Assembly (NCBI RefSeq): GCF_012927245.1
Contig: NZ_JABBGE010000005.1
Location: 1 to 64,000 of the forward strand
From: Streptomyces sp. R302
Lineage (GTDB): Bacteria > Actinomycetota > Actinomycetes > Streptomycetales > Streptomycetaceae
Reading direction: 5' to 3'
DNA: 64,000 nt
Shown here: positions 12,563 to 45,644 of the stretch, in pieces
How the letters are laid out: the number at the start of each line of letters is the position of its first letter
How positions within the stretch are numbered: position 1 is the stretch's first letter
Notes under the pieces: model-generated
The model's database searches: none
Told to the model about the DNA's origin: nothing
The model's input: the letters and a program-made list of their open reading frames with translations, nothing else
Program-made: the position numbers and the translations under genes

Positions 12563-12637
12563 ACCTGCGTAGCTCAGCGGCAGAGCACCGGTCTTATAAG
12601 CCGAGGGTCGCGGGTTCGAATCCCGCCGCAGGTACCA
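12563..12637 (+). tRNA. tRNA-Ile (anticodon TAT)
   Basis: A full cloverleaf is visible. The acceptor ACCTGCG pairs with CGCAGGT, D-arm GCTC/GAGC, anticodon stem CCGGT/GCCGA (first pair mismatched), loop CTTATAA, T-arm GCGGG-TTCGAAT-CCCGC, discriminator A, and the CCA end is encoded at 12635-12637. TAT would read AUA directly, whereas bacteria normally decode AUA with a lysidine-modified CAT tRNA. Such a tRNA is typical of phage or plasmid accessory sets. Confidence 0.85.
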
Positions 12638-14096: not shown

Positions 14097-15295
14097 CCAC
14101 GCCCATGACCCCGCAGGACGCCCTCCTCCGGCTCCAGCAGTACGGCAAGCGCACGTCGACGTGGTCGACCGCGACGTACAACGACGGCACGGAGAAGGCC
14201 CTCCACCAGATCGCCACCGCCCTCGGCGCTGAGGCGGTCAGCCTCGGCCTCCAGGTCGACCGTCTCAACGCCGAAGGCGCCCAGCTGCGCGACCGCCTCG
14301 CCGAGCTCGAGGCCCTGGAGCTGGGAGCCGTCGACGGACGCGTCTCGGCGGCCTGCGGCACCCCGGGGCACCCGACGTGGCTCCGGTCGCCGGACGACAC
14401 CCGCGGCTGCCCCTGGTGCCGGGTCACCGACCTCGAGACCGAGCGGCACACCACCAACGCGGCGTTGAGCGACGCCGCCGAAGCGCTCCGCCGCGACCGC
14501 GACCGCATCGCCGAGTTGGAGGCCAGCCCGCCCTTCGCCGACAACACGGGCGAGCCCGTGCTCGCCGCGTTCGCCCAGGCCGTCCACAGCGAGTCCCTGG
14601 ACTACGCCGTCAAGTACGGGCACCTCCGCCGCTCCGACGGAACCACCCCCAGCGCAGAGACCGCCCGCATCGCCGAGCTTCAGTACGAGATCGTCCAGCT
14701 CCTCGACAATGCCGGGACCGTCACCTGGACCGACGTCCTGAAGATGATGACCTCCTCCATCCAGGCCGAGGCCGATCCCGCACAGCTCCGTGGCCACCTG
14801 CTCCGCACCGCGGTCCTCTGCGCCAGCTGGACCCGCGACATCAGCCAGCGCCACGATTCCGCCCTTCCCCACGACCCGTACATCACCGCCGTCGTCGACG
14901 CCCTCACCACCGCCGGTCTGGAACCCACCACCCACTGGACGTCCGACCTGGAGCTTGACCCGTACGACGACGGTCCGCACGCCGGCTGCACCACCATGCT
15001 CAACGCCTACCTTGACTGGAACGGCACCGAGAACGCCGCACACGAGCACGGCTTCGCCCTTCTCTGGGACCACCCCGCCGAGCAGTGGCAGTGGGCCCCG
15101 CGCGCCGAGAACGGCCACCTCGACAGCGCACCCGAGTTCCTCCCGAAGCTCGGCCGCTACGCCCACCCCGACGCCGTCGTCGCCACCGTCCGCGCCCTCA
15201 CCGCCGGCGAGCCCCTGCCCGAGGGCCACGCCCCCTACTGGCACGAGGCCGACGCCGTGAAGACCGCCGTCGCTGCCTGGGCCGCCGAGTCCTGA
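14093..15295 (+). CDS. Large hypothetical protein, DUF6292-like C-terminus
   Basis: This 400-residue protein has an N-terminal coiled-coil part with a Cys pair (GCPWCRVTDLETERHTTNAA) and a C-terminal domain (YLDWNGTENAAHEHGFALLW, then QWQWAPRAENGHLD) resembling the Streptomyces DUF6292 family. That family often carries a wHTH-associated or stand-alone domain of unknown role. ATGA coupling to the upstream gene. Confidence 0.6.
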   Translation: MTTPMTPQDALLRLQQYGKRTSTWSTATYNDGTEKALHQIATALGAEAVSLGLQVDRLNAEGAQLRDRLAELEALELGAVDGRVSAACGTPGHPTWLRSPDDTRGCPWCRVTDLETERHTTNAALSDAAEALRRDRDRIAELEASPPFADNTGEPVLAAFAQAVHSESLDYAVKYGHLRRSDGTTPSAETARIAELQYEIVQLLDNAGTVTWTDVLKMMTSSIQAEADPAQLRGHLLRTAVLCASWTRDISQRHDSALPHDPYITAVVDALTTAGLEPTTHWTSDLELDPYDDGPHAGCTTMLNAYLDWNGTENAAHEHGFALLWDHPAEQWQWAPRAENGHLDSAPEFLPKLGRYAHPDAVVATVRALTAGEPLPEGHAPYWHEADAVKTAVAAWAAES

Positions 15296-24532: not shown

Positions 24533-25024
24533 TCACGGAGTCCGCCGCAGAGAGGTGATCTCAGGGACTCTGCTGGCGATGGTGGGACGGGCCGCTTCCG
24601 GGGTGGCCAGCAGGGCGACGATGGTGACGGGCTGATCGCAGTGCGGGCAGTTCCGGACAGCGGTAGGGGTCAGGGCCTGCTCCAGCTGTCCGGTGCTGGC
24701 TGCGACCGTCGGAGCCTGCCGGGGCTGCTGTCCGCCAAGCCGGATCGCCCGCTGTTCGTCGCGTTCCTGGTTGCGCTGCCTCTCCGCGTCGCGGCGGCAG
24801 TTGGGCGAGCAGTAGATCTGCCGAAGGCGAGGGTTGGCGGTGAAGACGCCCTGGCAGACAGGGCAAGTGTGGACTGCAGGGGGTGAGGGCGGGAGCCGGT
24901 GGGCTGCGGACTTGCAGCGGGGAGAACAGTAGATCTGTCGAGGATGTGGCACGAACTCGCCCTGGCGGACAGGGCAGTTGGCCGACAAGGGGGTGAGTGA
25001 GGTCGTGACGTTGTCAGGAGACAC
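24533..25024 (-). CDS. Zinc-ribbon accessory protein of the IS21 element
   Basis: The 163-residue product has repeated treble-clef-type units. NCPVRQGEFVPHPRQIYCSP with RCKSAAHR is the first, TCPVCQGVFTANPRLRQIYC with SPNCRRDAERQ the second, and a C-terminal NCPHCDQP is a third. The first unit has Arg in place of the second Cys (CPVR). The GTG start overlaps the istB stop. Such a gene after istB is seen in some actinobacterial IS21 relatives, and its role in transposition is unknown. Confidence 0.7.
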   Translation of the reverse strand: MSPDNVTTSLTPLSANCPVRQGEFVPHPRQIYCSPRCKSAAHRLPPSPPAVHTCPVCQGVFTANPRLRQIYCSPNCRRDAERQRNQERDEQRAIRLGGQQPRQAPTVAASTGQLEQALTPTAVRNCPHCDQPVTIVALLATPEAARPTIASRVPEITSLRRTP

Positions 25025-25823
25025 GGGCGTTCACTCCCTTGCGGATGGTGTCGGCCTGGGTCTGGTGATTGCGGAGCCGGTAGGAGGGGCCGTCGATGCC
25101 GGCGACGGCTGCCCGGTGCAGGAGCCGGTCGAGCATGGCGGCAGCGACGGTGGCGTCGCCGAAGGCTCCGGCCCAGTCGGCGATGCCGACGTTGGTCGTC
25201 AGGATCGTGCTCGACTTCAGATACCTCTGGTTGATCACCTGGAACAGCGCGGAGGCACCGTCCTCGGGAAGCGGGAGGTAGCCGAGCTCGTCGATGATCA
25301 AAAGCTTCGGACCTGCGAAGAAGCGCATGCAGGTCTTCCAGCGTCCTTCGAGGGCGGCCTTGTGGCACTTGGCCGCGAGCTCGGCGGCGGTGGTGAAGTA
25401 GACGCGGTGTCCGGCGTCGACCGCGGCCCGGCCGAGGGCGACGGACAGCATGGTCTTGCCGACGCCGGGAGGCCCGACGAACAGGACGTTGGAGGCGTCG
25501 TCGAGGAAGCGCAGGGTGGCCAGGTCGCGGATGAGTTTCTCGTCGACACCGGGCTGGGCGGCGAAGTCGAAGTCGTTCAGCGTCCAGGGTTCGGGCAGGC
25601 AGGCGAACCGGAGACGAGCCGCGAGCCGACGGGCCTCAGTCGCCTCGACTTCGATCTCCAGGAGCCGTTCCAGTGCGGCGGTCAGCGACATTCGCTCGGT
25701 CCGGGCCTGGTCCAGCACTCGGTTGAGTGCTTCGGCGGCGTCGTTGAGTTTGAGGTAGGAAAGGTGGCCTCGCAGCTGCTGGAAGCGGCGTGCTTCGCTC
25801 ATCTGCATCGGGGACGTACTCAC
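25014..25823 (-). CDS. istB: IS21 helper ATPase IstB
   Basis: The 269-residue AAA+ protein has Walker A GPPGVGKTMLSV near residue 117, Walker B LLIIDELGYLPL near residue 173, sensor STILTTNVG, and the typical C-terminal RLLHRAAVAGIDGPSYRL. IstB assembles on DNA and selects targets for the IstA transposase. Start ATG 25823 overlaps the istA stop. Length and motifs look intact, so the element may be active. Confidence 0.95.
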   Translation of the reverse strand: MSTSPMQMSEARRFQQLRGHLSYLKLNDAAEALNRVLDQARTERMSLTAALERLLEIEVEATEARRLAARLRFACLPEPWTLNDFDFAAQPGVDEKLIRDLATLRFLDDASNVLFVGPPGVGKTMLSVALGRAAVDAGHRVYFTTAAELAAKCHKAALEGRWKTCMRFFAGPKLLIIDELGYLPLPEDGASALFQVINQRYLKSSTILTTNVGIADWAGAFGDATVAAAMLDRLLHRAAVAGIDGPSYRLRNHQTQADTIRKGVNARVS

Positions 25824-27181
25824 TCCGTGTTCTCCTCCTTCGGTGAGGGAACGGTCCGCAGCCGGTCGGCCACGGCGGCATAGTGGGACAGGTCGATCAC
25901 GACCCGTTCGGCCGGATCACCAGCGGCGGCCTGCTGACCGCGCAACCGCTCGGCCTCGGCCCGCGCGGCCTCAGAAGGAGGCCTGCGGACCTTGTTCTTG
26001 CAGGGAGCCCGGTCCGAGAACGAGGCCAGGACCTCTCGCTCAAGCGCGAGGACATGCCCGGCGTCCCGCACCGTCTGACCGGATCCGCGCGGCGCCCGGC
26101 GGTGGCGGGCAACCACGGCCCGCCCGGCAGTGGCGATGTCGAGATGGTTCTCGCCGAGCCGGTGCAGGACCCTGACCTGGGTGCCGGCGAGTCCCGGCGG
26201 GACGGAATACAGATTCCCGTCGAAGGACACCAGGCACTGCGGGCTCACGGTCCGCTCAACCTCCAGCTCGGCCGGGAACGGCCGGACCGGGACGTCGAGC
26301 AACATTTCGGCGGCAGCGAGTTCACCGACGGTGACCTTGATCCCGTCCACCGACCGGCGGCGTTCATCCATGCGGACTGCGAGCTTGTCGATGCCGGACT
26401 GGGCCTGGACGACGGTCAGCGCGTCGGGAACCGTGCGCCACCAGCGTTGGGCTGCCGAATGGTTGGCCTTCTCGACAACGCCCTTCCGGTTGCCTCGACG
26501 GGGCGGACAGATGTCGACTCCGACGCCGTAGTACTTCGCGACCGCGGCGAAAGACGCGGTGACCTGCCCGCTGGAGGGGTAACAGACAGTGGCCATCCGG
26601 TCGAAGCGCCACCGCCTCGCGGTCCCGCCCAGCTTGCGGACCACCTGATCGAGGGCCTGGACCAGGTGCGGGAAGTCCTCGGACTCCGCCAGCACCGCCC
26701 GCCACCGGCCCGAATGCGCGAGCGCCCCGACCAGCAGGTGAGCGTGCTCGCCCACTCCCCACGACTCGGGCGCGTCCGGAAGCTCCAGCCAGTCGAACTG
26801 GATCTCCTCGCCCGGCGGATGTGCGATCACCGCGACGTTCCGGCCCGTCGCGGCATGACATGGTTCGCAGTGCGGGCGGACCTGGTAGCGGCGAAGAGCG
26901 CGGGTGAACGTTGAGTAGCCGCCTTCATAGCCCAAGTCCCTGACCTCGTCGAACAGGGTCGAGGCCCACAGATGTGGATCGTCCGCGAGCCGCTGCCGGC
27001 AGTACTGCAGGAACGGCACGAAGGCATCCGGGCTCTGACGGCGCTGGCCAGGGACCTGGTCGCCATTCAGATAGGCACGGATCGTCTTGCGGTCACGACC
27101 CAGATGCCGCGCGATCGCCGAGATCGTCCAACCCTGACGACGCAGAGCATGAGCATCCACGTCTTCCTCCCGCGTGAGCAT
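25820..27181 (-). CDS. istA: IS21 transposase IstA
   Basis: The 453-residue protein has an N-terminal HTH (LRRQGWTISAIARHLGRDRK) and a DDE integrase core with IQFDWLELPD, the RWRFDRMATVC region and the catalytic-Glu region GNRKGVVEKANH. A C-terminal beta domain (LVSFDGNLYSVPPGLAGTQV) follows. It cuts and joins the IS ends. Start ATG 27181 (MLTREEDVDA) is chosen because the HTH begins right after it; an upstream frame to 27232 has no RBS. No disabling change is seen. Confidence 0.95.
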   Translation of the reverse strand: MLTREEDVDAHALRRQGWTISAIARHLGRDRKTIRAYLNGDQVPGQRRQSPDAFVPFLQYCRQRLADDPHLWASTLFDEVRDLGYEGGYSTFTRALRRYQVRPHCEPCHAATGRNVAVIAHPPGEEIQFDWLELPDAPESWGVGEHAHLLVGALAHSGRWRAVLAESEDFPHLVQALDQVVRKLGGTARRWRFDRMATVCYPSSGQVTASFAAVAKYYGVGVDICPPRRGNRKGVVEKANHSAAQRWWRTVPDALTVVQAQSGIDKLAVRMDERRRSVDGIKVTVGELAAAEMLLDVPVRPFPAELEVERTVSPQCLVSFDGNLYSVPPGLAGTQVRVLHRLGENHLDIATAGRAVVARHRRAPRGSGQTVRDAGHVLALEREVLASFSDRAPCKNKVRRPPSEAARAEAERLRGQQAAAGDPAERVVIDLSHYAAVADRLRTVPSPKEENTE

Positions 27182-30277: not shown

Positions 30278-30745
30278 ATGGAAGCCCTGATCGCGTTCCT
30301 CCAGGCCCGCCTCGACGAGGACGCCGCAGCCGCCCACGCTGCCACTCCCGGCCCCTGGTGGTACCACCCTGGCAAGCAGTGGCTGGAGGGCGAGTCGTTC
30401 GAGAGCTACGACCTGACCAAAGGGCTGGAGTTCGTCGGCTACGGCGGCCCCCACCCGTTCACCGGCGCCGTGGCCGGCACAGGGCCCGCCGACCACCCCC
30501 AGAGCATGGCCGACGCAGCACACATCGCCCGGCACGACCCCGCGCGAGCGCTTCGCGGCGCGGAGGCGCTCCGCAGCCTGCTGCACGCCTACGAGCACCC
30601 CGAGACCAGCCCCGAGCTGCCGGACTCCGTGAACACGCTGACCACGGCCATCCAGCGACAGGTGCTTGAGAAGGCCCTCCGCCTCCTGGCCATCGCGTAC
30701 AACGACCACCCCGACTACCGGCCCGAGTGGGCCCCCACCACCTGA
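30278..30745 (+). CDS. DUF6221-like protein
   Basis: This 155-residue protein matches the Streptomyces/actinophage DUF6221 layout: FLQARLDEDAAAAHAATPGPW at the N-terminus, HIARHDPARALRGAEALRSL in the middle and a C-terminal LAIAYNDHPDYRPEW. Function unknown. A second member lies at 42859-43296. The spacing of 7 bases after the phosphatase suggests co-transcription. Confidence 0.75.
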   Translation: MEALIAFLQARLDEDAAAAHAATPGPWWYHPGKQWLEGESFESYDLTKGLEFVGYGGPHPFTGAVAGTGPADHPQSMADAAHIARHDPARALRGAEALRSLLHAYEHPETSPELPDSVNTLTTAIQRQVLEKALRLLAIAYNDHPDYRPEWAPTT

Positions 30746-31688: not shown

Positions 31689-31756
31689 GGACCGGCAGGG
31701 CCAGGCCGAAGCCCAGACGCCCGCTCGCGCGGACGCTCGCGAAACCCTGCCGGTCC
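31689..31756 (-). other. Three-helix structured element, copy A
   Basis: Read on the minus strand, a 12-pair outer stem (GGACCGGCAGGG/CCCTGCCGGTCC) encloses TTTCGCGAGCG, a small hairpin CCGC-GCGA-GCGG and a second hairpin with TTCG loop in GTCTGGGCTTCGGCCTGGC. Copy B at 33590-33655 (plus strand) keeps the conserved segments while changing both strands of the outer stem and of the first hairpin. This supports a folded RNA or DNA. It sits upstream of the gene at 31785. Confidence 0.6.
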
Positions 31757-33589: not shown

Positions 33590-33655
33590 GACCGGTGGGG
33601 TTTTGCGAGCGCCTGCTCTGCCAGGCGTCTGGGCTTCGGCCTGGCCCCACCGGTC
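33590..33655 (+). other. Three-helix structured element, copy B
   Basis: The outer stem GACCGGTGGGG/CCCCACCGGTC encloses TTTTGCGAGCG, the hairpin GCCTG-CTCT-GCCAGGC and a TTCG-looped hairpin in GTCTGGGCTTCGGCCTGGC. It matches copy A (31689-31756, opposite strand) with paired substitutions. It lies between the convergent paralog-2 and methyltransferase genes. Confidence 0.6.
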
Positions 33656-33737: not shown

Positions 33738-34757
33738 CTACGCCAGACGCAGGCGCCACCCGGGCTCCGGACCGTCGAAAACGGGGACGAGCGTGGCCGA
33801 GTAGCTCTCCACCGCCGGCCGGGCGGCCTCCTCCCAAGCGCCCAGCCACCTGCGCAGCACCGCGAGGGAAGCAGAGCCGGGGGCATCGGCGAAGATCGTG
33901 CCGTTCTCCTCGATCACGGCGGCCGACGTCGGCGTGCTGTGCCCGATGGCCCACCGGCCGCCGCGCACTGCGCCCACGGTCAGTTGCGGGTCCGCCTGAG
34001 CCGCGACGAACGCCTGGAATGACGCCCACGGCAGGGCACCGCCCGCGTACGTCCCTGTGTGCGCCCCCGGGTCCTGCAGCCGCTCCAGCGTGGCCCGGGC
34101 CCCACTGCGCAACCGGTCGTCCCGGTCCCGCCAGCCGATCGAGATCCACGCCGGCGCGGGCACCCGGGTCTCCCAGTCGACCCACCGGCCCGGCGCGTCC
34201 AGGTCCTGCTTCGGCGAGGTGGTGGCGTCGACGTACTCGCCGTGGAAGACCTCCTCCACCACCGGCTTCCCGCCGCTCACCCGGACCTTCACCACCGCGG
34301 TCATGTGCGGCAGCTCGGCGACCGGCAGAGGCGTCACGATGACCGCCTCGTCCGTGCTCTGCGCGACCCACTCGGCCGGCAGGAGCGGGGGAGTGCACCA
34401 CGCCACCGTGCGGTGGAACGGCGCGTGCGCGGCACGGGCCGGGTCGTCGGCGAGGTAGCAGCGGACGTGGAAGTCCGCCTGCTGGTGGTGGATGAGGTTC
34501 GCCCACGAGACGAGGTAGGGGTCGATGTCCAGGCTCGTGACGCTGCCCGTGCCCCCGACGAGCTGCGCCAGCAGCGCACCGGAGTACCCGGACCCGGTGC
34601 CGTGCTCGATGACCTTCATCCCGGGCTGCACGTCCAGGGAGGTCAGCTCGCGGTGGATGACCCGCGGAGCGGAGCGGTGCGGGGTTTCGCCGCGCCCGTC
34701 GTGGTGGGTGTAGTGGCGCTCGGGGACGGTGTCGGCGGCCTCGGCGACGACGGTCAT
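33738..34757 (-). CDS. PIMT-type O-methyltransferase of the lasso peptide cluster
   Basis: This 339-residue protein has an N-terminal SAM-methyltransferase domain of the protein-L-isoaspartate type (RVIHRELTSLDVQPGMKVIE, then HGTGSGYSGALLAQLVGG and SLDIDP), and a C-terminal extension. In cellulonodin-2/lihuanodin-type clusters, a homologous enzyme methylates an Asp in the lasso ring, which then closes to an aspartimide. This is the last gene of the minus-strand cluster, 82 bases after the protease gene. The precursor has the expected Asp-Thr in its ring. Confidence 0.85.
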   Translation of the reverse strand: MTVVAEAADTVPERHYTHHDGRGETPHRSAPRVIHRELTSLDVQPGMKVIEHGTGSGYSGALLAQLVGGTGSVTSLDIDPYLVSWANLIHHQQADFHVRCYLADDPARAAHAPFHRTVAWCTPPLLPAEWVAQSTDEAVIVTPLPVAELPHMTAVVKVRVSGGKPVVEEVFHGEYVDATTSPKQDLDAPGRWVDWETRVPAPAWISIGWRDRDDRLRSGARATLERLQDPGAHTGTYAGGALPWASFQAFVAAQADPQLTVGAVRGGRWAIGHSTPTSAAVIEENGTIFADAPGSASLAVLRRWLGAWEEAARPAVESYSATLVPVFDGPEPGWRLRLA

Positions 34758-34839
34758 AGCACTCCTTCAGGTGACACAGGGTGGGCACTTGCTTGCGATA
34801 ACTGCTCCGGGCGGGTGATGGACACGGCCGCCCGGAAGG

Positions 34840-35274
34840 TCAGATCTTGAGGGCCGGCAGGTGGTGCCAGCCCCCCGCCGTGTACTCGCCGACGGGTCCG
34901 TGGCCAGGGAGCTCCACCCAGGCGTGGTACTCCACCGGCGGGGGAACGAACCGGGCCCCGACGCACCAGTCGAGCCGGCCGCCGAGGAGAGCCACCGCGA
35001 GGACGGCGCTGAGGGACGTCTCGAGGCATGCGGCCCGCCCGGGCCACCAGCGAGCCGCATGCCTCACAGCTTCCACGACTGCCTCCGCCCGAGCCGGCGC
35101 CACCGGCCGTCGGCCGAGCCAGCGCGCGATGCGCACCGCGCGCGCCGTGCGCCGGAACGGGAACCGCAGCAGTACCAGCGCCGCCGCGAACCCGACCACG
35201 GCGGCCGCGCGCTCGACGGTAGACCCGGTACGGGAGGTCGAGTACGCCTCCATGCTGCTCATCGCGACCACCAC
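34840..35274 (-). CDS. Lasso peptide leader protease (B2, transglutaminase-like)
   Basis: The 144-residue protein has a hydrophobic N-terminal helix (AAAVVGFAAALVLLRF) and the cysteine protease core: GRAACLETSLSA with catalytic C83, then VEYHAWVEL with H117, and the C-terminal EYTAGGWHHLPALKI. B2 removes the leader peptide so that the core can be cyclised. Its start overlaps the B1 gene by 16 bases, indicating a coupled operon. Confidence 0.9.
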   Translation of the reverse strand: MVVAMSSMEAYSTSRTGSTVERAAAVVGFAAALVLLRFPFRRTARAVRIARWLGRRPVAPARAEAVVEAVRHAARWWPGRAACLETSLSAVLAVALLGGRLDWCVGARFVPPPVEYHAWVELPGHGPVGEYTAGGWHHLPALKI

Positions 35275-35558
35275 CGGCGCTGTGCGGGCTCGGGCGCACC
35301 GTCGTGGGCAAGGCCGAGGCGGACCAGGGAGCCCGCCACCTCGCCGACATCCGCAGCGGCCCGCTCCCGGCCGATGCTGTACCGCGCGGCGTACCGTTCC
35401 ACTGCCTGCTCACGGCCCGGCCCGGCCAGGAGCAGGAGCACGGCGGCCGAGCTGGTGGGGGAGAGGTACTGCCATCGGCCGGTGTGCTCGTCCAGGATCG
35501 CGCCGCCCTCATCCGTCAGCACCGGGTGCGCGTGCTCACACAGCTGCCACACGGTCAC
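35259..35558 (-). CDS. Lasso peptide recognition protein (B1, PqqD-like RRE)
   Basis: This 99-residue protein has the PqqD-like recognition element fold: GGAILDEHTGRWQYLSPTSS, then a long helix (SAAVLLLLAGPGREQAVERY) and a C-terminal helix. It binds the precursor leader, typically via the YxxP motif, and delivers it to the protease. It overlaps the cyclase gene by 23 bases and the protease gene by 16 bases. Confidence 0.9.
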   Translation of the reverse strand: MTVWQLCEHAHPVLTDEGGAILDEHTGRWQYLSPTSSAAVLLLLAGPGREQAVERYAARYSIGRERAAADVGEVAGSLVRLGLAHDGAPEPAQRRWWSR

Positions 35559-37371
35559 CGGCCTCCTCCCACCAGCCGATCGCCGCGGCGTCGAGCTGTC
35601 GCAGCCACACCTCGGCCGCGATCGCCGAGTGGATCGCGCCCTGTGGCGCCGGCTGCCCGGCGACCGCTCGCGCGAGCGCCTCGGCCACGGGCTGCTCGGT
35701 CAGCAGGCCCATCGTGGCGAGCCGCGACGACGGCCCGAGCAACTCCCGCATCCGGACGGCGGTCGCCTGGATCCCCGCGTACGCGACCCCGTTGAAGCCT
35801 CCCTTCGTCCGCCGCTCCAGGACGAACGACGGCACAGGCCCCGCCTTGAACGCGGCCCCGAGCAGCGGCTTGAACTCGTAGGGCACCCCGCGCTGCTGAG
35901 CGGGGACCGCCAGGCAGGCCCTCATCACCTCGGAGTCCAGGTACGGGGCCGCGATGTCGACGCCGTGACCATGCCTGGCGAGCGCCCGCAGCCCAGCAGT
36001 GTCCGCGCCGACACGGGCGAGATCCTGGCGCTCGGTCCACACCGCCAGCTGGTCCGGAGCGTCATCAACCTCGGCCGCAGCGTCGTCGAGGAGCGATGCG
36101 AGCATCAGCCGCGCCCCGCGGGTCATCCAGTCTGCGGTGGCCAGCAACGGTGTCCACGCCACCGGCCGCTGCGCCTGGGGAACCCACGGCCGCGGGTCGG
36201 CGCGGAGCTCGCGGGCGACGGCAAGCCACCCCCCGGGCAGGTCCAAGCGGCTGGCCGGCAGCGCGCGGCGGAACGTCTCGATCCCGGACGTCCTGCGCAG
36301 GCGCGCGTGCCCCTGGGCGTGAGACCACGCGCGTCGGCCCTTTCGCTGCCGGAGCAAGTCGGCGATGTATTCGGCGCCCGCCGACAGTACTCCGTCCCCG
36401 CCGACGCCTGTCAGATGGGCGCCGCCCGGCCCGTTCATCTCCACGACCGCGTCCAGCACCGCCCGCTTGATGGGCGCGGTCACGACGTACGCGGACGGGG
36501 CGTCCGTCACCGGCAGGTGCGTCAAGTCATCGAGGCCCGCGTAGTACACCGTGCCCGCGTTCCCGGGCGCGATGCGGTGCCGGATGCTGTCGACCGTCAT
36601 GGCGGTGCGGGCCGCGTACGTGAGGTCGTCGTCACGCAGCCGCTCGTCCGCGAAGGTGACAGCCGCGACCGGGCCTCGCTCGGCCGCCAGGCATGCGAGC
36701 GTCGTCGAGTCCAGACCGGCGAGATCCGCACTCACCGACCGGCCGTCGGCGCGCAGGGCCACAGCCGCGCGCAGCGCTGCCTGCACCCGTGCCGCTCCCG
36801 TACGCAGGTCCACCGGCTCGTATGCCACCGGCTCGTATCGCACGACCCGTGCCCCGGAGGGCGTCAGCTCCAGCAGCGATCCGGTGGGCACCCGCTGTAC
36901 CCCGCGGAACAACGAGCGCCGGCCGGTCACGTCGGGCTGCCCGAACGCCAGATGCGCGGCGAGCGCGGTCGTATCGACTGGTGCTCCGTCCAGCGAAGCG
37001 AGAGGGATTGCCGCGGTCGACCACCAGGTGCCGCCCGTCTCCGGCCGGAAGTACACCGGATGCTGCCCGGACAGGTCCCCGATGATCACGGTCGACTCCC
37101 CGTGCCGGGCGACCACCGTGTACGAGCCGGGCCAGCGGGTCAGCTCTGCCCACCGGCCGGCCACGACATGCCGCAGGCCGGCCAGGAGGTGCTCCTCGTC
37201 GGCCGCGCATTCACCGACGACCGCCACCGCTGCAGCGTCGACGGATGTGGACAGGACTCGGTCATGCGGCCATTCGGCCGTCCACACGTGCTGAAACCCC
37301 GTGACCGGCCGGCCCGCCGCCGGCCTCTGGACGGGGGAGTGGCCACCGGACCACCCCGCGCTCCACCTCAT
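35536..37371 (-). CDS. Lasso cyclase (C, asparagine-synthetase-like)
   Basis: The 611-residue protein has an N-terminal degenerate glutaminase-type domain without the catalytic Cys2, and a synthetase domain whose ATP loop reads SADLAGLDSTTLACL near residue 220. Further signature segments are HLTGVGGDGVLSAGAEYI and ERRTKGGFNGVAY near the C-terminus. It adenylates the ring Asp/Glu side chain and closes the isopeptide bond. Start ATG 37371 follows GGGAGG. Upstream in-frame codons have no start. Confidence 0.9.
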   Translation of the reverse strand: MRWSAGWSGGHSPVQRPAAGRPVTGFQHVWTAEWPHDRVLSTSVDAAAVAVVGECAADEEHLLAGLRHVVAGRWAELTRWPGSYTVVARHGESTVIIGDLSGQHPVYFRPETGGTWWSTAAIPLASLDGAPVDTTALAAHLAFGQPDVTGRRSLFRGVQRVPTGSLLELTPSGARVVRYEPVAYEPVDLRTGAARVQAALRAAVALRADGRSVSADLAGLDSTTLACLAAERGPVAAVTFADERLRDDDLTYAARTAMTVDSIRHRIAPGNAGTVYYAGLDDLTHLPVTDAPSAYVVTAPIKRAVLDAVVEMNGPGGAHLTGVGGDGVLSAGAEYIADLLRQRKGRRAWSHAQGHARLRRTSGIETFRRALPASRLDLPGGWLAVARELRADPRPWVPQAQRPVAWTPLLATADWMTRGARLMLASLLDDAAAEVDDAPDQLAVWTERQDLARVGADTAGLRALARHGHGVDIAAPYLDSEVMRACLAVPAQQRGVPYEFKPLLGAAFKAGPVPSFVLERRTKGGFNGVAYAGIQATAVRMRELLGPSSRLATMGLLTEQPVAEALARAVAGQPAPQGAIHSAIAAEVWLRQLDAAAIGWWEEAGDRVAAV

Positions 37372-37517
37372 CTGATGCCTCCCGAACGTCTGAACTGCAT
37401 GTAGAAGAGCGAAGACGCCGGTCCTGCCGTCCTGCCGGGACGGGGCAGGACGGCAGGACCGGCGCCTCCAGAGGCGGGGCAGCCGACGACAGCTGCCCGC
37501 CCCGCCGCGCGGTGAGA

Positions 37518-37658
37518 TCAGTGCTTGTACTGGGTGTCGTCCGCGGTGTCGAAGGACTGCGTGCCGAGGGTGACCTCGGCGACGGTGCCCACGGCGATGA
37601 CCACGGGGGCCTCGTAGGCGGGGGTGACGATCTCGACCTCGGTGATCTGCTGGGCCAT
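37518..37658 (-). CDS. Lasso peptide precursor (A)
   Basis: The 46-residue peptide starts at ATG 37658 after GAAGGGAAG. The leader (residues 1-31) has the recognition motif YEAP (Y15-P18, YxxP) and Thr30 at the penultimate position. The predicted core is GTQSFDTADDTQYKH. Gly1 would join Asp9 to give a nine-residue ring, with Asp6-Thr7 inside the ring as the methylation/aspartimide site. The tail would be DTQYKH. It is the first gene of the minus-strand cluster. Confidence 0.9.
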   Translation of the reverse strand: MAQQITEVEIVTPAYEAPVVIAVGTVAEVTLGTQSFDTADDTQYKH

Positions 37659-37808
37659 GACGGCTTCCCTTCGTCAGTGCCCGGCACCTCTGCGGCGCCG
37701 GGGCGATGACGATTAGTGAACTCGTGTCTGCGGAGCGCCAACAGCTGCCACAATGTCCCCCAGCTGTAGTCCAGTTGTAGCCCAGCTCGGGACAGGATCG
37801 TCGAGACG
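37659..37808. promoter_or_regulatory. Divergent promoter region with TGTAG repeats
   Basis: Between the lasso precursor and the XRE-TPR regulator, CAGCTGTAGTCCAGTTGTAG and a following CCCAGCTC form tandem CAG-[CT]TGTAG repeats near 37760-37785. They would suit binding by the adjacent regulator and could control both directions. The promoter hexamers are not clear. Confidence 0.5.
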
Positions 37809-39089
37809 ATGACCACTGGGGACCGCATCCGCACAGCGCGCGAGAAGCGCGGCTGGAGCCAGATCCGCCTCGCAAAGGAGTTATCCACCGCACGCTGGGG
37901 CGTCGAGGACTACCTCGGCCGGCAGCAGGTCTACCGATGGGAGAAAGGCGGCCGCGCCCCCAAGGACTGGCGCCCGTTCATCGAGCAAGTCCTCGACATC
38001 AGCCTGGAGATCAACCCGACCGCCACCATTCAGACACCCGATCTCGATACGGTGGCCTCAGTCATGCAGCTGGGAGGCACTGACGTGGACCGACGGACCC
38101 TACTCGTAGCCACGGCCGCCGCCAGCCTGGCCGCGCTCGACCTCACCGACGCCGAAGCCGTCACCCGCCGCGTCAGCAAGCCCGGCCCGGTCGCAGTGGG
38201 CGCCGGCGATGTCTCCGCGGTACGGATCATGACCACCACCTTGGGCGACGCGGCCTCCGAACTCGGTGGCGGACACGCCCGCCACCTCGCCGTCCGCTAC
38301 CTCACCGTCGACGTCAAACGCCTCCTCGACGGCCGCTACACCGACAAGACCGGCCGCGACCTGTTCGCCGCCGCCTCCGAGCTCGTCCACCTCATCGGCT
38401 GGATGGCCCGCGACGAAGGCGACTACGGCCTCAGCCAGCGCTACAACGTCCACGCCTACAAACTCGCCGCCGAAGCCGGCGAGAACGAACTCGCCGCCAC
38501 CGCCCTGCGCGCCCTCGCCGACCAAGCCATCGACCTCGGCCACATCCCCACCGCCGTACGCCTCGCCGAAGCCTGCGAGCAACGAGGCCGCAAGCTCGAC
38601 AACCCGAAGGCGCTGGCCTACTACCGCAACACCCTCGCCCGCGCCCTGGCCGCCGACCGCGACGACACCGCCGCCGCCCGCCTGCTCACCTCCGCGCAGA
38701 CCGCCATCGAACGCGCCCCCGCCCGGCCCGGCCAATCCTGGGCCAGCCACTACAGCCACGGCCGATGGGCCCACGAGTCCGGCATGATCCACGCCCGCAT
38801 GGGCGACTGGTCCGCCGCAGAGGAACACCTCCGCCTCGCCCTCGACATCCACGGCCTCGACCGAAAACGCACCCGCGCGATCGTCCTCGCCGACCTCGGG
38901 CACGTGCAGGTGCGCCGCGGCAACACCCAGGAAGCCCTCACCACCTGGGACGAGTTCCTCGACATCGCCGACGGCATCCAGTCCGTCCGCATCACCGACG
39001 GCCTCACCAACATCGCTGCCCGCCTCTCCTCCCTACCTCCCTCCGGAAGCCAGCAGGAGCTGCTCGAACGCGTCAGCGCCCGCCTGTAA
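37809..39089 (+). CDS. XRE-family regulator with TPR domain
   Basis: The 426-residue protein has an N-terminal XRE domain (IRTAREKRGWSQIRLAKELS, then QQVYRWEKGGRAPKDW) and a C-terminal helical repeat region (residues about 150-420, for example ALRALADQAIDLGHIPTAVR and EEHLRLALDIHGLDR). This layout is common in Streptomyces and responds to small signals or peptides. It is divergent from the lasso cluster, so it may sense the lasso peptide or control it. That link is inferred from position only. Confidence 0.8.
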   Translation: MTTGDRIRTAREKRGWSQIRLAKELSTARWGVEDYLGRQQVYRWEKGGRAPKDWRPFIEQVLDISLEINPTATIQTPDLDTVASVMQLGGTDVDRRTLLVATAAASLAALDLTDAEAVTRRVSKPGPVAVGAGDVSAVRIMTTTLGDAASELGGGHARHLAVRYLTVDVKRLLDGRYTDKTGRDLFAAASELVHLIGWMARDEGDYGLSQRYNVHAYKLAAEAGENELAATALRALADQAIDLGHIPTAVRLAEACEQRGRKLDNPKALAYYRNTLARALAADRDDTAAARLLTSAQTAIERAPARPGQSWASHYSHGRWAHESGMIHARMGDWSAAEEHLRLALDIHGLDRKRTRAIVLADLGHVQVRRGNTQEALTTWDEFLDIADGIQSVRITDGLTNIAARLSSLPPSGSQQELLERVSARL

Positions 39090-39297: not shown

Positions 39298-39304
39298 GAG
39301 CTTC

Positions 39305-39446
39305 GGGGTGCCCGGTGCGCAGGCCGGGGTTACTTCCCACTGCTAATGGGGTGGTCGCGGGTTCGAATCCCGCCGAGGGCCTTGGCCCTCGTAGCTCAGC
39401 GGCCAGAGCACCTTGTACCCCAGCCGACCTTGATCTCGGGCACCCC
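39305..39446 (+). ncRNA. yrlA: YrlA-type Y RNA with permuted tRNA-like domain
   Basis: A 10-pair perfect outer stem GGGGTGCCCG/CGGGCACCCC closes the RNA. The Ro-side strands contain GTGCGCAGGCC-GGGG-TTACTTCC and CCCC-AGCCGACCTTGATCT. Inside is a tRNA-like domain in permuted order: T-arm GCGGG-TTCGAAT-CCCGC, an acceptor-like hairpin GAGGGC-CTTG-GCCCTC, then D-arm GCTCAGCGGCCAGAGC, with no anticodon arm. Bacterial YrlA RNAs are known to mimic tRNA in this way and to bind Ro60, whose gene follows 37 bases downstream. Confidence 0.8.
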
Positions 39447-39482
39447 GCGCTCATCCTCCCCTCCCTGCAGAGGGGTTGCACC

Positions 39483-41147
39483 ATGTCCCGCTTCAACACC
39501 CGCGCCGCCCGCCCCCGCGCCACCTCGCCCGTGACCACCACCGGGGAGCACACGGCCACCTACGAGGCCGCCACCGGGTACCTCCGCGACAGTAAGAGCG
39601 AGCTCTACCTCCTCGCCGTCCACAACCGCGTCGCGACCGACACCTTCTACGAGACCGGCACCACCCGCGACGACCGCTACCGCCAGCTCGTCCGCGAACT
39701 CGCTGTCCTCGACCCGGCCTGGACCGCCAGCTTCCTCGCCTGGCTCCGCACCCACGGCAACATGCGCACCGCCGCGATCGTCGGCGCCGCCGAGTTCGTT
39801 CACGCCCGCCTCCACGCCTCCAAGACCGCCGCCCTCCGCCCGGGCCCCATCGCCGTGGACATCGCGCCGCACTCCGACCGCGCCGTCATCGCCTCGGTCC
39901 TCCAGCGCCCCGACGAGCCCGGCGAACTGCTCGGCTACTGGACCACCCACTACGGCCGACGCCTGCCCCAGCCGCTCAAGCGCGGCATCGCCGACGCCAC
40001 CCAGCGCCTCTACACCGAGCGCGCCCTCCTCAAGTACGACACCGACTCCCACGGCTACCGCTTCGGCGACGTCCTCGAGCTCGTTCACGCCGCGCCCGCC
40101 GCGAACAGGCCCTGGCAGGGCGACCTCTTCAAGCACGCCATCGACCGCCGCCACAACCGAGCTGAGGACGTCCCCGCCCAGCTCGCCACCATCCGCGCGC
40201 GCAACGACCTCCACCGCGTCCCCGTCCAGGAGCGCCGCGCCCTCCTCGCCGGCGGCGCTGACCGGCTCGCGGCCGCGGGCATGACCTGGGAGTCGCTCGC
40301 CGGCTGGCTCCAGGGCCCCCTCGACGCCGCAGCCTGGGAGGCCGTCATCCCGAGCATGGGCCTCATGGCCCTCGCCCGGAACCTGCGCAACTTCGACGAG
40401 GCTGGCGTCTCCGACGCCGTCGCCCAAGCCGTCGCGGCGCGGCTCGCCGATCCCGACGAGGTCCGCCGCTCCCGCATGTTCCCCTTCCGGGTCTGGGCCG
40501 CCTACAAGGCCGCCCCCAACCTGCGCTGGGCCCACCCCCTCGAGCAGGCCCTCAACCACTCCCTCGCGAACGTCCCCGCTCTCAGCGGGCACACCCTGAT
40601 CCTCGTCGACCGCTCGCCCAGCATGTTCCCCGGCTTCTACTACTCCACGGCGAACACCTCCGACATCTCACTCGCCGAGCAGGCCGCCATCTTCGGTGCC
40701 GCGCTCGCGCTGCGCGCCGAGAACCCCACCCTGGTGGAGTTCGGCGGCACCTCCCGGGAGATCACCCCGAAGAAGGGCGGCAGCGCCCTGCCCCTGGTCG
40801 AACAGTTCGGCAGCATAGACGGCACCGACATCCCCTCCGCCGTGAAGAAGCACTTCTCCGGCCACGACCGCGTTATCGTCGTCACCGACGAGCAGACCCG
40901 CCCTGGCTGGCTCCCGTCCAACATGATCAGCTACCAGGGCATGCCGGAGACCCGGATCGACGACCTCATCCCGGCCAGCGTCCCCGTGTACATGTGGAAC
41001 ATGGCCGGCTACCGGCCCGGAGCCACGCCCGCCGGTGGCCGCAACCGGCACACCCTCGGAGGTCTCAGCGACGCCGCCTTCAGCCTTATCCCGCTCCTCG
41101 ACGCCGGCCGCGACGCCCGCTGGCCCTGGGAACAGGCCGACGCGTAG
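39483..41147 (+). CDS. rsr: Ro60-family protein (TROVE domain plus vWA)
   Basis: The 554-residue protein has an N-terminal helical-repeat TROVE region (residues about 10-360, with LYLLAVHNRVATDTFYETG and the AIVGAAEFVHARLH segment) and a C-terminal vWA domain with intact MIDAS LILVDRSPSM near residue 376 and VIVVTDEQT. Ro60 forms a ring that binds Y RNA and misfolded or structured RNA. In Deinococcus the Y RNA links it to polynucleotide phosphorylase. ATG 39483 follows AGAGGGG. A Y RNA pair directly upstream confirms the pairing. Confidence 0.92.
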   Translation: MSRFNTRAARPRATSPVTTTGEHTATYEAATGYLRDSKSELYLLAVHNRVATDTFYETGTTRDDRYRQLVRELAVLDPAWTASFLAWLRTHGNMRTAAIVGAAEFVHARLHASKTAALRPGPIAVDIAPHSDRAVIASVLQRPDEPGELLGYWTTHYGRRLPQPLKRGIADATQRLYTERALLKYDTDSHGYRFGDVLELVHAAPAANRPWQGDLFKHAIDRRHNRAEDVPAQLATIRARNDLHRVPVQERRALLAGGADRLAAAGMTWESLAGWLQGPLDAAAWEAVIPSMGLMALARNLRNFDEAGVSDAVAQAVAARLADPDEVRRSRMFPFRVWAAYKAAPNLRWAHPLEQALNHSLANVPALSGHTLILVDRSPSMFPGFYYSTANTSDISLAEQAAIFGAALALRAENPTLVEFGGTSREITPKKGGSALPLVEQFGSIDGTDIPSAVKKHFSGHDRVIVVTDEQTRPGWLPSNMISYQGMPETRIDDLIPASVPVYMWNMAGYRPGATPAGGRNRHTLGGLSDAAFSLIPLLDAGRDARWPWEQADA

Positions 41148-42031: not shown

Positions 42032-42862
42032 GTGCACACCGCCCCCGACGTCAGCGACTACGAGTGGCCCACCTGCACCAACCCCCGCTGCGGCCGCGCC
42101 CTGTGGCCCGAGGAAGCGCACCGTCACGTCTGCCGCCCCTGCGAGCAGACCGTGAACCGGCTCCTTGGTGAACTCCCCGCGCTCTTCGTGCGCCTGTCCA
42201 CCACCTCAGCCCTCCTGCGCCGCGTCGGCAACCGCAGCGCCGCCGCCAGCGGCCGCGACACCCCGCCGATCCCTGGCCGCCTCGAGGTTCTCGACCTCAC
42301 CGGCCCCGGAGGCGCCGCTGCCCGGCTCCAGGCCATCGAAGACTCGTGGCGAGCCGCCCTCGGCCGGCGCATCGGCACCTGGGCTGGCTCCCCGGCCCAA
42401 GCCCTCCCCGTCCACGTCACCTTCCTCCGCATCAACCTGGAGTGGGCCTGCGAGCAGTACGCCGCCGTCGACCAGGACCTCGAGGTCATCCGCCGACTCC
42501 ACCGCGACTGCACCACCGCCGTCTCCGGGACCCCGCGCCCCGCCCACGTCGGGATCGGCACCTGTCCCGCCCGCGACGCCGATGGCGCTCTGTGCGGCGA
42601 AGATCTCTCCGCGACCACTGCCCACCACCGCATCCACTGCCCCCGCTGCGGCGCCCGCTGGGACGGCCTCGCCGACTGGCGCACCCTCCGTCGCGCTCAG
42701 GAGGCAGCAGCAGCTTCCACCGCGCTGATGGACGAGGAGCCGACCGAGTTCGCCAGCCAGACTCTGGAGAAGGCCACCGCCTACACAGCGGACGATGACG
42801 ACGTTGAGACTGGCGAGCTCCCCGTCTACGCGTACAGCGGAGGAGCGTGGGTGCAGCGATGA
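42032..42862 (+). CDS. Zinc-ribbon protein, hypothetical
   Basis: This 276-residue protein has an N-terminal zinc finger (CTNPRCGRALWPEEAHRHVC, then RPCEQTV) and a C-terminal zinc ribbon (GTCPARDADGALCGEDLSAT, then HCPRCGARWDG), separated by a helical domain. The GTG start at 42032 follows GAGGAG. Such proteins are frequent in actinophage genomes, and the role is unknown. The stop overlaps the DUF6221-like gene. Confidence 0.65.
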   Translation: MHTAPDVSDYEWPTCTNPRCGRALWPEEAHRHVCRPCEQTVNRLLGELPALFVRLSTTSALLRRVGNRSAAASGRDTPPIPGRLEVLDLTGPGGAAARLQAIEDSWRAALGRRIGTWAGSPAQALPVHVTFLRINLEWACEQYAAVDQDLEVIRRLHRDCTTAVSGTPRPAHVGIGTCPARDADGALCGEDLSATTAHHRIHCPRCGARWDGLADWRTLRRAQEAAAASTALMDEEPTEFASQTLEKATAYTADDDDVETGELPVYAYSGGAWVQR

Positions 42863-43296
42863 CCCAGCAGACAAGGACGCCCACCGGCCCGACGCCCGCC
42901 CCCGTGCAGCTGCGCCTGGACGTCGGCGAGTTCCTCCTCGCGCGTCTCTTGGAGGCCCGGGAGCTCGCCCAAGCGGCCAGCCCCGGTACGTGGAGGTCCA
43001 ACGAGGAGCACGACGAGGTCCTCGCCGTCGACGACGTCACCGTCGCGGACGGCTTCGCGCTCAGCGGGCGTCAGCTACGCGCCACCGTCGACCACATCGC
43101 GCACCACCATCCCGTCAGGGTTCTCGCCGACATCGCCGCCAAGGAGGAGCTCGTCCGGGAGTACCTCCTCGCAGCCCGCGACCCCGCCTGCCGAACGGAT
43201 CCGGCGTTCCATCTCCAGGTGCACATCCTGCGCATGGTGGTCACCGCCCTCGCCCGTGCCTACGACGACCACCCGGACTACCGGTCCGGGTGGTGA
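42859..43296 (+). CDS. DUF6221-like protein
   Basis: This 145-residue protein shows the same layout as the protein at 30278: FLLARLLEARELAQAASPGTW, HIAHHHPVRVLADIAAKEEL and the C-terminal ALARAYDDHPDYRSGW. ATGA-coupled to the zinc-ribbon gene. Function unknown. It supports phage ancestry for this part of the island. Confidence 0.75.
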   Translation: MTQQTRTPTGPTPAPVQLRLDVGEFLLARLLEARELAQAASPGTWRSNEEHDEVLAVDDVTVADGFALSGRQLRATVDHIAHHHPVRVLADIAAKEELVREYLLAARDPACRTDPAFHLQVHILRMVVTALARAYDDHPDYRSGW

Positions 43297-43774: not shown

Positions 43775-44437
43775 ATGATTCGTGCAGTGGTGTTTGACGT
43801 CGGTGAGTGCCTGGTGGACGAGACCAGGGAGTACGGCACGTGGGCCGACTGGCTCGGGGTGCCACGGCACACCTTCGCGGCCATGTTCGGCGCCGTGATC
43901 GCCCAAGGGCGCGACTACCGGGACGTCTTCCAGGAGTTCCAGCCGGGCTTCGACCTCTACGAGCAGCGCGAGGCCCGCGCCGCCGCCGGTCAGCCCGAGC
44001 ACTTCGGCGAGGAAGACCTCTACCCGGACGTCCGGCCCGCGCTCGCGCAGCTCCGCGCCGACGGCCTGTGGCTCGGCATCGCCGGCAACCAGACCACCCG
44101 GGCGGGGAAGATCCTTCGCGAGCTGTTCACCGAGGACGTCGACTTCATCGGCACCTCCGACGACTGGGGCGCGTCCAAGCCCGACGTCGAGTTCTTCCGG
44201 CGGGTCGCCGAGGTCGTGCCCTTCGAGAACTCGGAGATCCTTTATGTCGGCGACCGAGTCGACAACGACCTTCGCCCGGCCGTGAAGGCCGGGATGGAGT
44301 CGGCCCTCGTCCGCCGCGGCCCCTGGGCGACCATCCAGTGGAACACCGAGGAAGCCGAAAAGCTCCCGACCTTCCGGGTCGAGAGCCTTGCGGAACTGTC
44401 CGGCAACATCATCCAGTTCAACGGCCGAGGGCGCTGA
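43775..44437 (+). CDS. HAD-superfamily hydrolase
   Basis: The 220-residue protein shows the HAD motifs: I is VVFDVGECLVDE (nucleophile Asp in DVGE; the usual second Asp is Glu), II is GIAGNQTT, III is the Lys in ASKPDVEFF, and IV is YVGDRVDNDLRPA. HAD enzymes act mostly as phosphatases or phosphonatases. The substrate is unknown. The D-x-D to D-x-E variation at motif I may alter activity. The 3' end overlaps the convergent regulator gene by 20 bases. Confidence 0.75.
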   Translation: MIRAVVFDVGECLVDETREYGTWADWLGVPRHTFAAMFGAVIAQGRDYRDVFQEFQPGFDLYEQREARAAAGQPEHFGEEDLYPDVRPALAQLRADGLWLGIAGNQTTRAGKILRELFTEDVDFIGTSDDWGASKPDVEFFRRVAEVVPFENSEILYVGDRVDNDLRPAVKAGMESALVRRGPWATIQWNTEEAEKLPTFRVESLAELSGNIIQFNGRGR

Positions 44438-45644
44438 CGGTCGTTTCCCAGCCGTACAGCCGGTCATCGAGGTCGCGGACACAGCGCTCGTGCTGCCACG
44501 GTGCGAGCGCGCGGCGCACGTCGCGGACGCGGTCCATGCCCGTGCTGTACCAGGTGCGGCGGAGCTGCTCGAGGGCGGCGACGGCGTACTCGCACGCCTT
44601 CTCCGGGTTGCGGTCGGCGGCCTCGACAGCAGCCAGGTCGCCGAAGATCACCGTGCGCTGCTTGTCCTCGCTCGGCTCCAGACCGTCAAGGACCCCGAGC
44701 AGCGTTTCGCGTGCCTGAGGCAGGTGGCCGGCTGTGAGCTGCGTGTGCCCCTTGAAAGCGGCGAGGCGGACCGGGCTGAACCAGTCCATCCACTCCGGCG
44801 AAGGGATATCGGGGCCGGCGGTGAGGACCTCCTCGGCGTGCCCGAGGAGGGAGAGCGCCGTCTGGGTGTGGCCGCATCGGGTCTCGCATTCGGCCTCGAC
44901 GGCGTCGAGCCACGCGAGGAAGGCTGCGGAAGCTTCCCCGCGCCGGGCGTACGTCCGGGCGGCTGTCATCCGCTCCACCGCGGCCTGCCGGTCGCCGGCC
45001 CACCCGGGGATGAAGGCGGAGTGCGCGAGGATCGCGGCGCCGAGGAGCTGATCGTCGGCCTGGCTGGCGGCCTGGAGGGCACGGGTCCATGTCTCCTTGG
45101 CCGTGTCCGGCTCCTGGCTGTCGAAGAACTGGATTCGCCCTGCGAGGAGGAAGGACTCCGCGAGCGCGGCCGCGACCGTCCGCCGGGCGATGCCGGCTGT
45201 TTCGGGGAGCAGGGCGCAGCCGAGGGCAGTGTGGGCGGCGATCGCCGGGTGGAGGGTCGCGGGGGCGACGGTCCAGTAGAGGCGGCGGTGCCGCCGGGTG
45301 ACCTCAGCGAAGTCCTCACCGGCAGTGGCCGGCTGGAGGGTAACGCCGGGCACGGGCACGGTAACCATGCCCCTGGTCCGCGGCAGCTCCCGCGGCTGGC
45401 CGTCCCGCTGTGCGCGGATGCCGTCCGGCGGAGTGAAGCCGAGGTCTTCCATGTTCTGGCCGAGGAGGCTCGTCAGCGCGCGCCGGACCGCGTCCCGGGG
45501 CCATGGCGGGTTCGCCGATTCCCAGCGCCGGACCTGCCGGACGGCCACGCCGACGGCGTCGGCGAGGGCTTCCTGGGTGCCGTAGCCTGCCGCGATCCGG
45601 GCCGCGCGAAGCAGCACGTTGCCGTCGTTCTCCACGTCTCTCAC
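44418..45644 (-). CDS. HTH-TPR transcriptional regulator
   Basis: The 408-residue protein has an N-terminal HTH (LRAARIAAGYGTQEALADAV, then GVAVRQVRRWESANPPWPRD) and long helical repeats resembling tetratricopeptides (for example AECETRCGHTQTALSLLGHA). It is similar in plan to the regulator at 37809. Divergent to the operon starting at 45820, which it probably regulates. Confidence 0.8.
   Translation of the reverse strand: MRDVENDGNVLLRAARIAAGYGTQEALADAVGVAVRQVRRWESANPPWPRDAVRRALTSLLGQNMEDLGFTPPDGIRAQRDGQPRELPRTRGMVTVPVPGVTLQPATAGEDFAEVTRRHRRLYWTVAPATLHPAIAAHTALGCALLPETAGIARRTVAAALAESFLLAGRIQFFDSQEPDTAKETWTRALQAASQADDQLLGAAILAHSAFIPGWAGDRQAAVERMTAARTYARRGEASAAFLAWLDAVEAECETRCGHTQTALSLLGHAEEVLTAGPDIPSPEWMDWFSPVRLAAFKGHTQLTAGHLPQARETLLGVLDGLEPSEDKQRTVIFGDLAAVEAADRNPEKACEYAVAALEQLRRTWYSTGMDRVRDVRRALAPWQHERCVRDLDDRLYGWETTVSALGR

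Follow-up and report, generated by a model that had tools for sequence, protein, structure and literature searches.

Two lasso peptides carrying an aspartimide, lihuanodin and cellulonodin-2, have been characterised. As described in PMC13001092, their clusters combine lasso genes with a PIMT-type methyltransferase that has a C-terminal extension, and both cores carry the motif DTAD, in which Asp6 is modified and Asp9 closes the ring. For group-1 lassimiditides the motif is given as D(T/S)AD at core positions 6-9 (PMC13001092, section 8), and sections 8, 10 and 11 of that review leave the function of the two peptides unstated. In PMC10787088, 67 PIMT-associated lasso clusters are counted. Here, a cassette of this kind was found in Streptomyces sp. 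R302 (genome 7.95 Mb, 25 contigs). The window, that is, the whole stretch of 64,000 nucleotides analysed, comprises bases 1-64000 of a contig of 635,866 bp (NZ_JABBGE010000005.1, hereafter C21). Quite probably, the genes form an accessory ('moron') cassette carried by a temperate prophage of Streptomyces, and an aspartimidylated lasso peptide should be their product. The cassette consists of six genes and a control region:

33738-34757, minus strand: PIMT-type O-methyltransferase with a C-terminal extension, 339 amino acids (PF01135 (PCMT), 45.8 bits, cut-off 20.3)
34840-35274, minus strand: B2 leader peptidase, transglutaminase-like, 144 amino acids (NF033537, 67.3 bits, cut-off 33; PF13471)
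35259-35558, minus strand: RiPP recognition element (RRE), a PqqD-like leader-binding protein, 99 amino acids (PF05402, 31.0 bits, cut-off 23.4)
35536-37371, minus strand: lasso cyclase of the asparagine-synthase type, albusnodin/ikarugamycin family, 611 amino acids (NF033561, 334.7 bits, cut-off 300; PF00733)
37518-37658, minus strand: lasso precursor, 46 amino acids (NF033521 lasso leader, 28.8 bits, cut-off 19)
37659-37808: shared divergent control region, with the block ACAACTGG-CTACAGCTGG-ACATT-TGGCAGCT
37809-39089, plus strand, divergent: helix-turn-helix (HTH)-tetratricopeptide repeat (TPR) regulator of the NsdA family, 426 amino acids (NF053720, 295 bits, cut-off 75)

Genes were predicted with a simple GC-frame caller; of the 96 in the window, 49 were compared with the family library. 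A sequence-only reading of this DNA had described the precursor, cyclase, RRE protein and protease, followed by a PIMT, as a complete and tightly overlapping cluster. The four lasso genes are all present with family matches. The overlap holds for cyclase and RRE (23 bp) and for RRE and B2 (16 bp), whereas gaps separate the precursor from the cyclase (146 bp) and B2 from the PIMT gene (82 bp). Five genes, PIMT included, had been recognised, but the divergent regulator had been overlooked. All six reading frames are open. Against NF033530, the RRE protein scores 49.6 bits, under the cut-off of 70. The cyclase is 46-64% identical to 14 relatives and its loop DLAGLDS is invariant in all 15 cyclases; a search of PDB sequences with the cyclase profile gave no match. 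The B2 protease has Cys- and His-bearing blocks common to its relatives.

The precursor has a lasso leader, Thr at leader position -2, Gly1 in the core and an acidic residue within core positions 7-9. Thr at position -2 is conserved in lasso precursors. Leader cleavage is predicted after ...VTL, directly before GTQSFDTAD, and the predicted core is GTQSFDTADDTQYKH, with DTAD at positions 6-9. Asp6 is the predicted aspartimide site and Asp9 the predicted point of ring closure, equal to the positions in lihuanodin and cellulonodin-2 when compared by the descriptions in PMC13001092 rather than by their sequences. The likening of the methyltransferase to those of aspartimide lasso peptides was thus borne out, both by the core motif and by the C-terminal extension. 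The PCMT match covers residues 28-179 of the PIMT only, and the top NCBIfam models, the RiPP methyltransferases TIGR04188 and TIGR04364, score far under their cut-offs. The present cassette differs from the two known ones in lying on a prophage and in reading WEEAARP, not WxxxGxP, in its PIMT, and its product is a predicted one. To my knowledge, a divergent HTH-TPR regulator is not known for the lihuanodin and cellulonodin-2 clusters. As for the chemistry, which I infer from the characterised relatives, the RRE protein would bind the precursor, the B2 protease would cut it after ...VTL, and the cyclase would join Gly1 to Asp9 and so form the lasso. The PIMT would then methylate Asp6, and loss of methanol would leave the aspartimide. 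The calculated [M+H]+ of the predicted aspartimide product is 1677.71, as against 1713.74 for the linear core, 1695.72 for the lasso and 1709.74 for the transient ester.

The cassette had been placed inside a phage-like genome, and it can now be placed in an integrated prophage, recognised by its structural genes, an integrase and a split host gene. The following parts of the element carry this assignment:

1-64000: prophage DNA, the whole window, continuing to about C21:83807; the integrase end probably lies on contig C10
29578-30745, plus strand: SpoIIE/PP2C-like and DUF6221 genes (Pfam), phage-shared (homologues in phage records G416, 49%, and G422, 39%), left of the cassette
39483-41147, plus strand: Ro/Rsr (TROVE) gene (PF05731), phage-shared (two of 12 related phage records contain homologues), right of the cassette
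57257-58906: terminase
58919-60313: portal
60313-61122: head protease
61952-62902: major capsid
68712-73553: tape measure, 1613 amino acids, labelled from size and place only

With an amidase (lysis gene) beyond the window, the element has the genes of a temperate tailed prophage: terminase, portal, protease, capsid, a gene of tape-measure size and a lysis gene. In IMG/VR, relatives of the terminase were found at 13 loci, and 80 of 98 portal relatives were kept. Between 49.6 and 78 kb, 29 of the 35 predicted genes have a match in one or more of four related phage records (84-102 kb). Phage-shared genes flank the cassette on one contig, at 29578 and 30278 on the left and at 39483 and 42032 on the right. 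At the right end of the element, about C21:83807, a host AMP-ligase gene (PF00501) is interrupted. The C-terminal part of a gene of this kind (PF14535) is found at C10:1937-2458, beside the gene of a serine integrase of 517 amino acids (C10:347-1900). The AMP-ligase gene is whole in all five relatives examined, and the junction of the two gene parts appears there as a 14-bp alignment overlap in four and as a 9-bp gap in the fifth. The prophage would measure at least 83.8 + 1.9 kb plus the gap. Contig C11 was considered as the left end and rejected, having only three weak matches to related phages. The 66-nt inverted repeats at 31690-31755 and 33590-33655 were rejected as cassette borders, since both lie on one side.

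Several observations, on the prophage and on the cassette, weigh against this reading. Left of 49 kb, 66 of the 75 predicted genes match none of the four phage records, and nine do. An attachment core of at least 9 identical bp was not found at the junction; serine integrases need only a short core. The ends of C21 and C10 both stop in a repeat of about 127 bp, with which C23 also starts. The link between C21 and C10 is drawn from the split gene and not from one contig; C10 was chosen as the partner because of the split host gene, and the repeat alone does not single it out. Could the cassette then be chromosomal, with phage genes as mere neighbours through a wrong boundary or a misassembly? 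The spread of the prophage over two contigs that end with a repeated element, and the poor match of its early genes to known phages (nine of 75 left of 49 kb), would fit this. However, the cassette is flanked left and right by phage-shared genes within one contig, and beyond either end of the element there is a part of one host gene, so that I regard a chromosomal cassette as very improbable.

On the side of the cassette, the PIMT keeps the S-adenosylmethionine (SAM) loop GTGSG and reads WEEAARP where WxxxGxP is expected. The exact motif is present in 15 of 17 PIMTs aligned at full length, the other one without it being that of L059 (WEDADRP). Replacement of the Trp in this motif abolishes the activity of TceM but not that of LihM (PMC13001092); because Trp is dispensable in LihM, WEEAARP is a caution rather than a disproof. 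In a tree of 30 cyclases (L213-L219 were excluded, as were L205, L207, L208 and L209, whose best single match was short), that of the window forms a long branch (0.51), because of which relaxed function in this copy is possible. Scans for consensus promoters and terminators gave no match. A decaying cassette, with open frames and a modification no longer functional in this copy, would explain the altered motif and the long branch, and PIMT fragments or stop-bearing copies exist in several other genomes. On the other hand, the six frames are open, the SAM loop is retained, and the nonsynonymous rate (dN) is well below the synonymous rate (dS) in all four enzymes, with pairwise dN/dS of about 0.2-0.4 against L006, L007 and L195, a pairwise measure that does not isolate the phage branch. 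These values suggest purifying selection on all four enzymes, and decay seems improbable.

Is the cassette found on other carriers? The same six genes, in the same order and with the divergent regulator, occur on four linear Streptomyces plasmids (NZ_CP134606, NZ_CP108348, NZ_CP109045 and NZ_CP118575). Since the gene order is identical on four plasmids, chance is untenable. Their cyclases are 60-64% identical to that of the window and their cores are closely similar; the difference is the carrier, a plasmid rather than a phage. A plasmid search with the cyclase gave 45 records, the best 40 of which reach down to about 26% identity. When 84,980 species, each represented by one genome, were scanned with a profile, 36 loci were found, of which 26 are close (L184-L209): 24 in Streptomyces, one in Actinoalloteichus and one in Actinosynnema. 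The sequence-only reading had proposed looking for the same cluster in prophages and plasmids, and this led to close copies on the four plasmids and to many Streptomyces genomes, but to no further phage. The PIMT is present in 23 of 392 sampled genomes of the genus (E<=1e-20, source genome counted), in some as fragments or more distant forms. Stop-bearing or frame-split copies of the PIMT were seen in L038, L046 and L036/L047, which suggests, by their sequences, loss of the cassette in those genomes. The GC content at third codon positions (GC3) of the cassette is 0.90, the same as in the surrounding phage genes, and ranges from 0.75 to 0.95 in cassettes elsewhere; composition was rejected as a date of transfer because it matches the surroundings and varies widely elsewhere. 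No donor lineage was named from the cyclase tree, since the placement of the window's copy is weak (80/72) and its branch long.

Conservation was assessed in 31 precursors from cassette loci (loci with no precursor match, L209 and L211-L219, were excluded). Asp6 and Asp9 are present in all 31 and Gly1 in 30. Core position 7 is Thr or Ser in 29, with His in L009 and Lys in L204. Exact DTAD occurs in 15 precursors and D(T/S)AD in 18, the other 13 differing at position 7 or 8. The leader Tyr, the leader Pro and the core Gly are also invariant in an alignment of 16 precursors (the window's and 15 relatives). As judged from these alignments, the core varies little across the genus. The neighbourhood was compared over 31 loci (the window, the four plasmids and 26 genomes), with neighbours clustered from predicted genes, and only the six cassette genes were found at fixed positions: the cyclase in 29, the PIMT in 28, the regulator in 27, RRE in 24, B2 in 22 and the precursor in 13. 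The gene caller misses short genes, and a direct search found the precursor in 30 of the 31 loci. Two more neighbour families, present in five and four loci, have no constant place. Across the 31 loci, there is no recurrent exporter or immunity gene at a fixed place.

These results bear on the role of the peptide. A classical bacteriocin moron, whose lasso peptide would be secreted by a host exporter and kill competing actinomycetes, is a tentative possibility. That the cassette occurs in genomes as well as on plasmids and in a phage would agree with it, and there is a precedent for Bacillus in sublancin, a RiPP (ribosomally synthesised and post-translationally modified peptide) bacteriocin whose gene lies on the prophage SPbeta (PMC6391423). 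However, sublancin is a glycocin without lasso chemistry and has an immunity gene on its own prophage (PMC6391423), whereas the lasso loci share no such gene or exporter; a core that varies little, together with the lack of recurrent export and immunity genes, fits poorly to an arms-race bacteriocin. An intracellular lasso peptide that stops other phages in the lysogen is a reasonable rival, because intracellular lanthipeptides are described as shielding Streptomyces from phages (PMC12360287), though I would hold it to be somewhat doubtful. The absence of a recurrent exporter gene and carriage by prophage and plasmids agree with such a defence, as does a marine lasso family that, as described in PMC11118758, lies near mobile elements and is expressed together with defence systems. 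Against it, PADLOC gave only weak methyltransferase and TPR matches for the cassette proteins (10 window proteins, three of them in the cassette), in a search that did not extend to neighbouring defence islands. I favour action inside the producer or among kin (lysogen defence, signalling) over a classical secreted bacteriocin, because no exporter or immunity gene recurs and the core is little varied. Taken role by role, antibacterial action may be suggested tentatively, intracellular phage defence or exclusion is rather doubtful, some other role equally so, and a signal is unlikely.

Regulation, like role, is something I infer. The regulator has a TPR_12 domain above the cut-off and an HTH_3 domain slightly under it (22.0 vs 23). 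In 24 of the 31 cassette loci a clearly similar regulator gene stands immediately upstream, and the gene belongs to the cassette unit. Two types were distinguished, type A, that of the window, with relatives 51-76% identical, and type B at about 30%. The type-A block of the control region can be recognised in 9 of the 13 intergenic regions of type A, that of the window included; it is altered in L186, L188 and L193 and missing in L192. In type-B intergenic regions, a palindrome-like GTATAC...TATAC is kept in all 12 aligned. The counts for these blocks come from related sequences and carry no statistic. A TPR regulator is also found upstream of seven distant clusters with no PIMT match (L213-L219). 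The divergent HTH-TPR regulator would probably control the shared promoter region. In the RRNPP pairs Rap-Phr and NprR-NprX, which occur in phages and plasmids too, a TPR regulator stands beside a small-peptide gene. The window's regulator resembles these in its place next to a small-peptide gene and in its TPR fold; the peptide differs in being a predicted modified lasso. The fold model has an N-terminal helical part and a TPR superhelix (mean pLDDT, predicted local distance difference test, 81), and its structural matches include Rap (Z 17.8-19.5) and NprR (Z 16.7-17.0), but unrelated TPR proteins score equally well, up to 21.9. The sole match in a sequence search was a designed TPR protein. 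The regulator may sense a peptide, possibly the lasso peptide, though Rap/NprR and unrelated TPR proteins match alike. That the lasso peptide would be the signal for its own HTH-TPR regulator in an arbitrium-like system, the knotted peptide, with an aspartimide that hydrolyses with time, reporting the density of kin or of the element and steering the programme of plasmid or prophage, is improbable.

Carriage by a phage was found nowhere else in the collections covered. Among 50,697 phage records, none matched the cyclase at E<=1e-5. IMG/VR yielded nothing to scans with the cyclase, the cyclase profile, the PIMT profile or the core pattern, where short patterns can miss relatives and the collections may leave out records of the source genome or very near ones. 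The PIMT had nine partial matches in phage records (30-32% identity over 37-44% of the protein). One terminase family (phrog_9) and one portal family (phrog_104) were searched in 29 cassette-bearing genomes or plasmid records, the L203 genome being left out, and were found in 13 and 12, respectively. These matches lie on contigs other than that of the cassette, except in the complete chromosome of G440, in which about 0.75 Mb separates the cassette from the nearest one. On the four cassette plasmids, neither family was found anywhere on the records. For several loci the lack of a phage match says little because the contigs are short (3.6-19 kb). The structural-gene DNA matched 56 of 61 genomes at E<=0.001, and no close prophage was found, since among the matches listed outside the source genome (G000) lengths do not exceed about 170 bases. 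Mention of a lasso cluster on a phage was not found in the open-access literature, as far as it was covered. The new part is thus the prophage carriage, and the chemistry is that of a further predicted group-1 aspartimide lasso peptide.

Another phage gene pair came to light beside these searches. Streptomyces phage PapayaSalad gp25-gp24 (L237 3591-4930) includes a PAMT-like methyltransferase (TIGR04188, 337 bits, cut-off 380) without WxxxGxP, adjoining a 48-residue peptide that is rich in Gly/Ser and contains Asp, between endolysin and integrase. Relatives were found in eight Streptomyces phage records (five named phages). The two genes are a candidate phage-borne imiditide (type I pamtide) pair.

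Further features of the prophage were observed. Two DUF6221 genes flank the cassette, one per side (30278-30745 and 42859-43296). Just upstream of the Ro/Rsr gene there is a tRNA-like element (ARAGORN tRNA-Ser 39307-39382, within 39300-39482), unreported by Rfam at the gathering score; related phage record L157 has a tRNA call at 14530-14600, which precedes its Rsr match by about 100 bp. The element and the Ro/Rsr gene are a candidate phage Y RNA-Ro pair. An IS21-like element (25014-27019) and a tRNA-Ile with anticodon TAT (12563-12637) also lie inside the prophage. Two pairs of a HAD hydrolase and an HTH regulator are present (43787-45635 and C21:81275-83170), and a similar annotated pair follows the PIMT gene on plasmid NZ_CP109045. 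The genes at 62964-63986 and C21:64590-65606 are interleaved with the capsid genes, and both are conserved among related phages. The former has a match to phrog_26352, a family of unknown function, and a weak one to a glycosyltransferase family.

In summary, a minimal six-gene lasso module that includes a regulator occurs on plasmids, in genomes and in one prophage. A phage is hereby a carrier of lasso genes not seen elsewhere in the phage collections or literature searched. Since the phage-borne copy comes with no recurrent exporter or immunity gene, three concrete roles may be considered for it: killing, phage exclusion and signalling.

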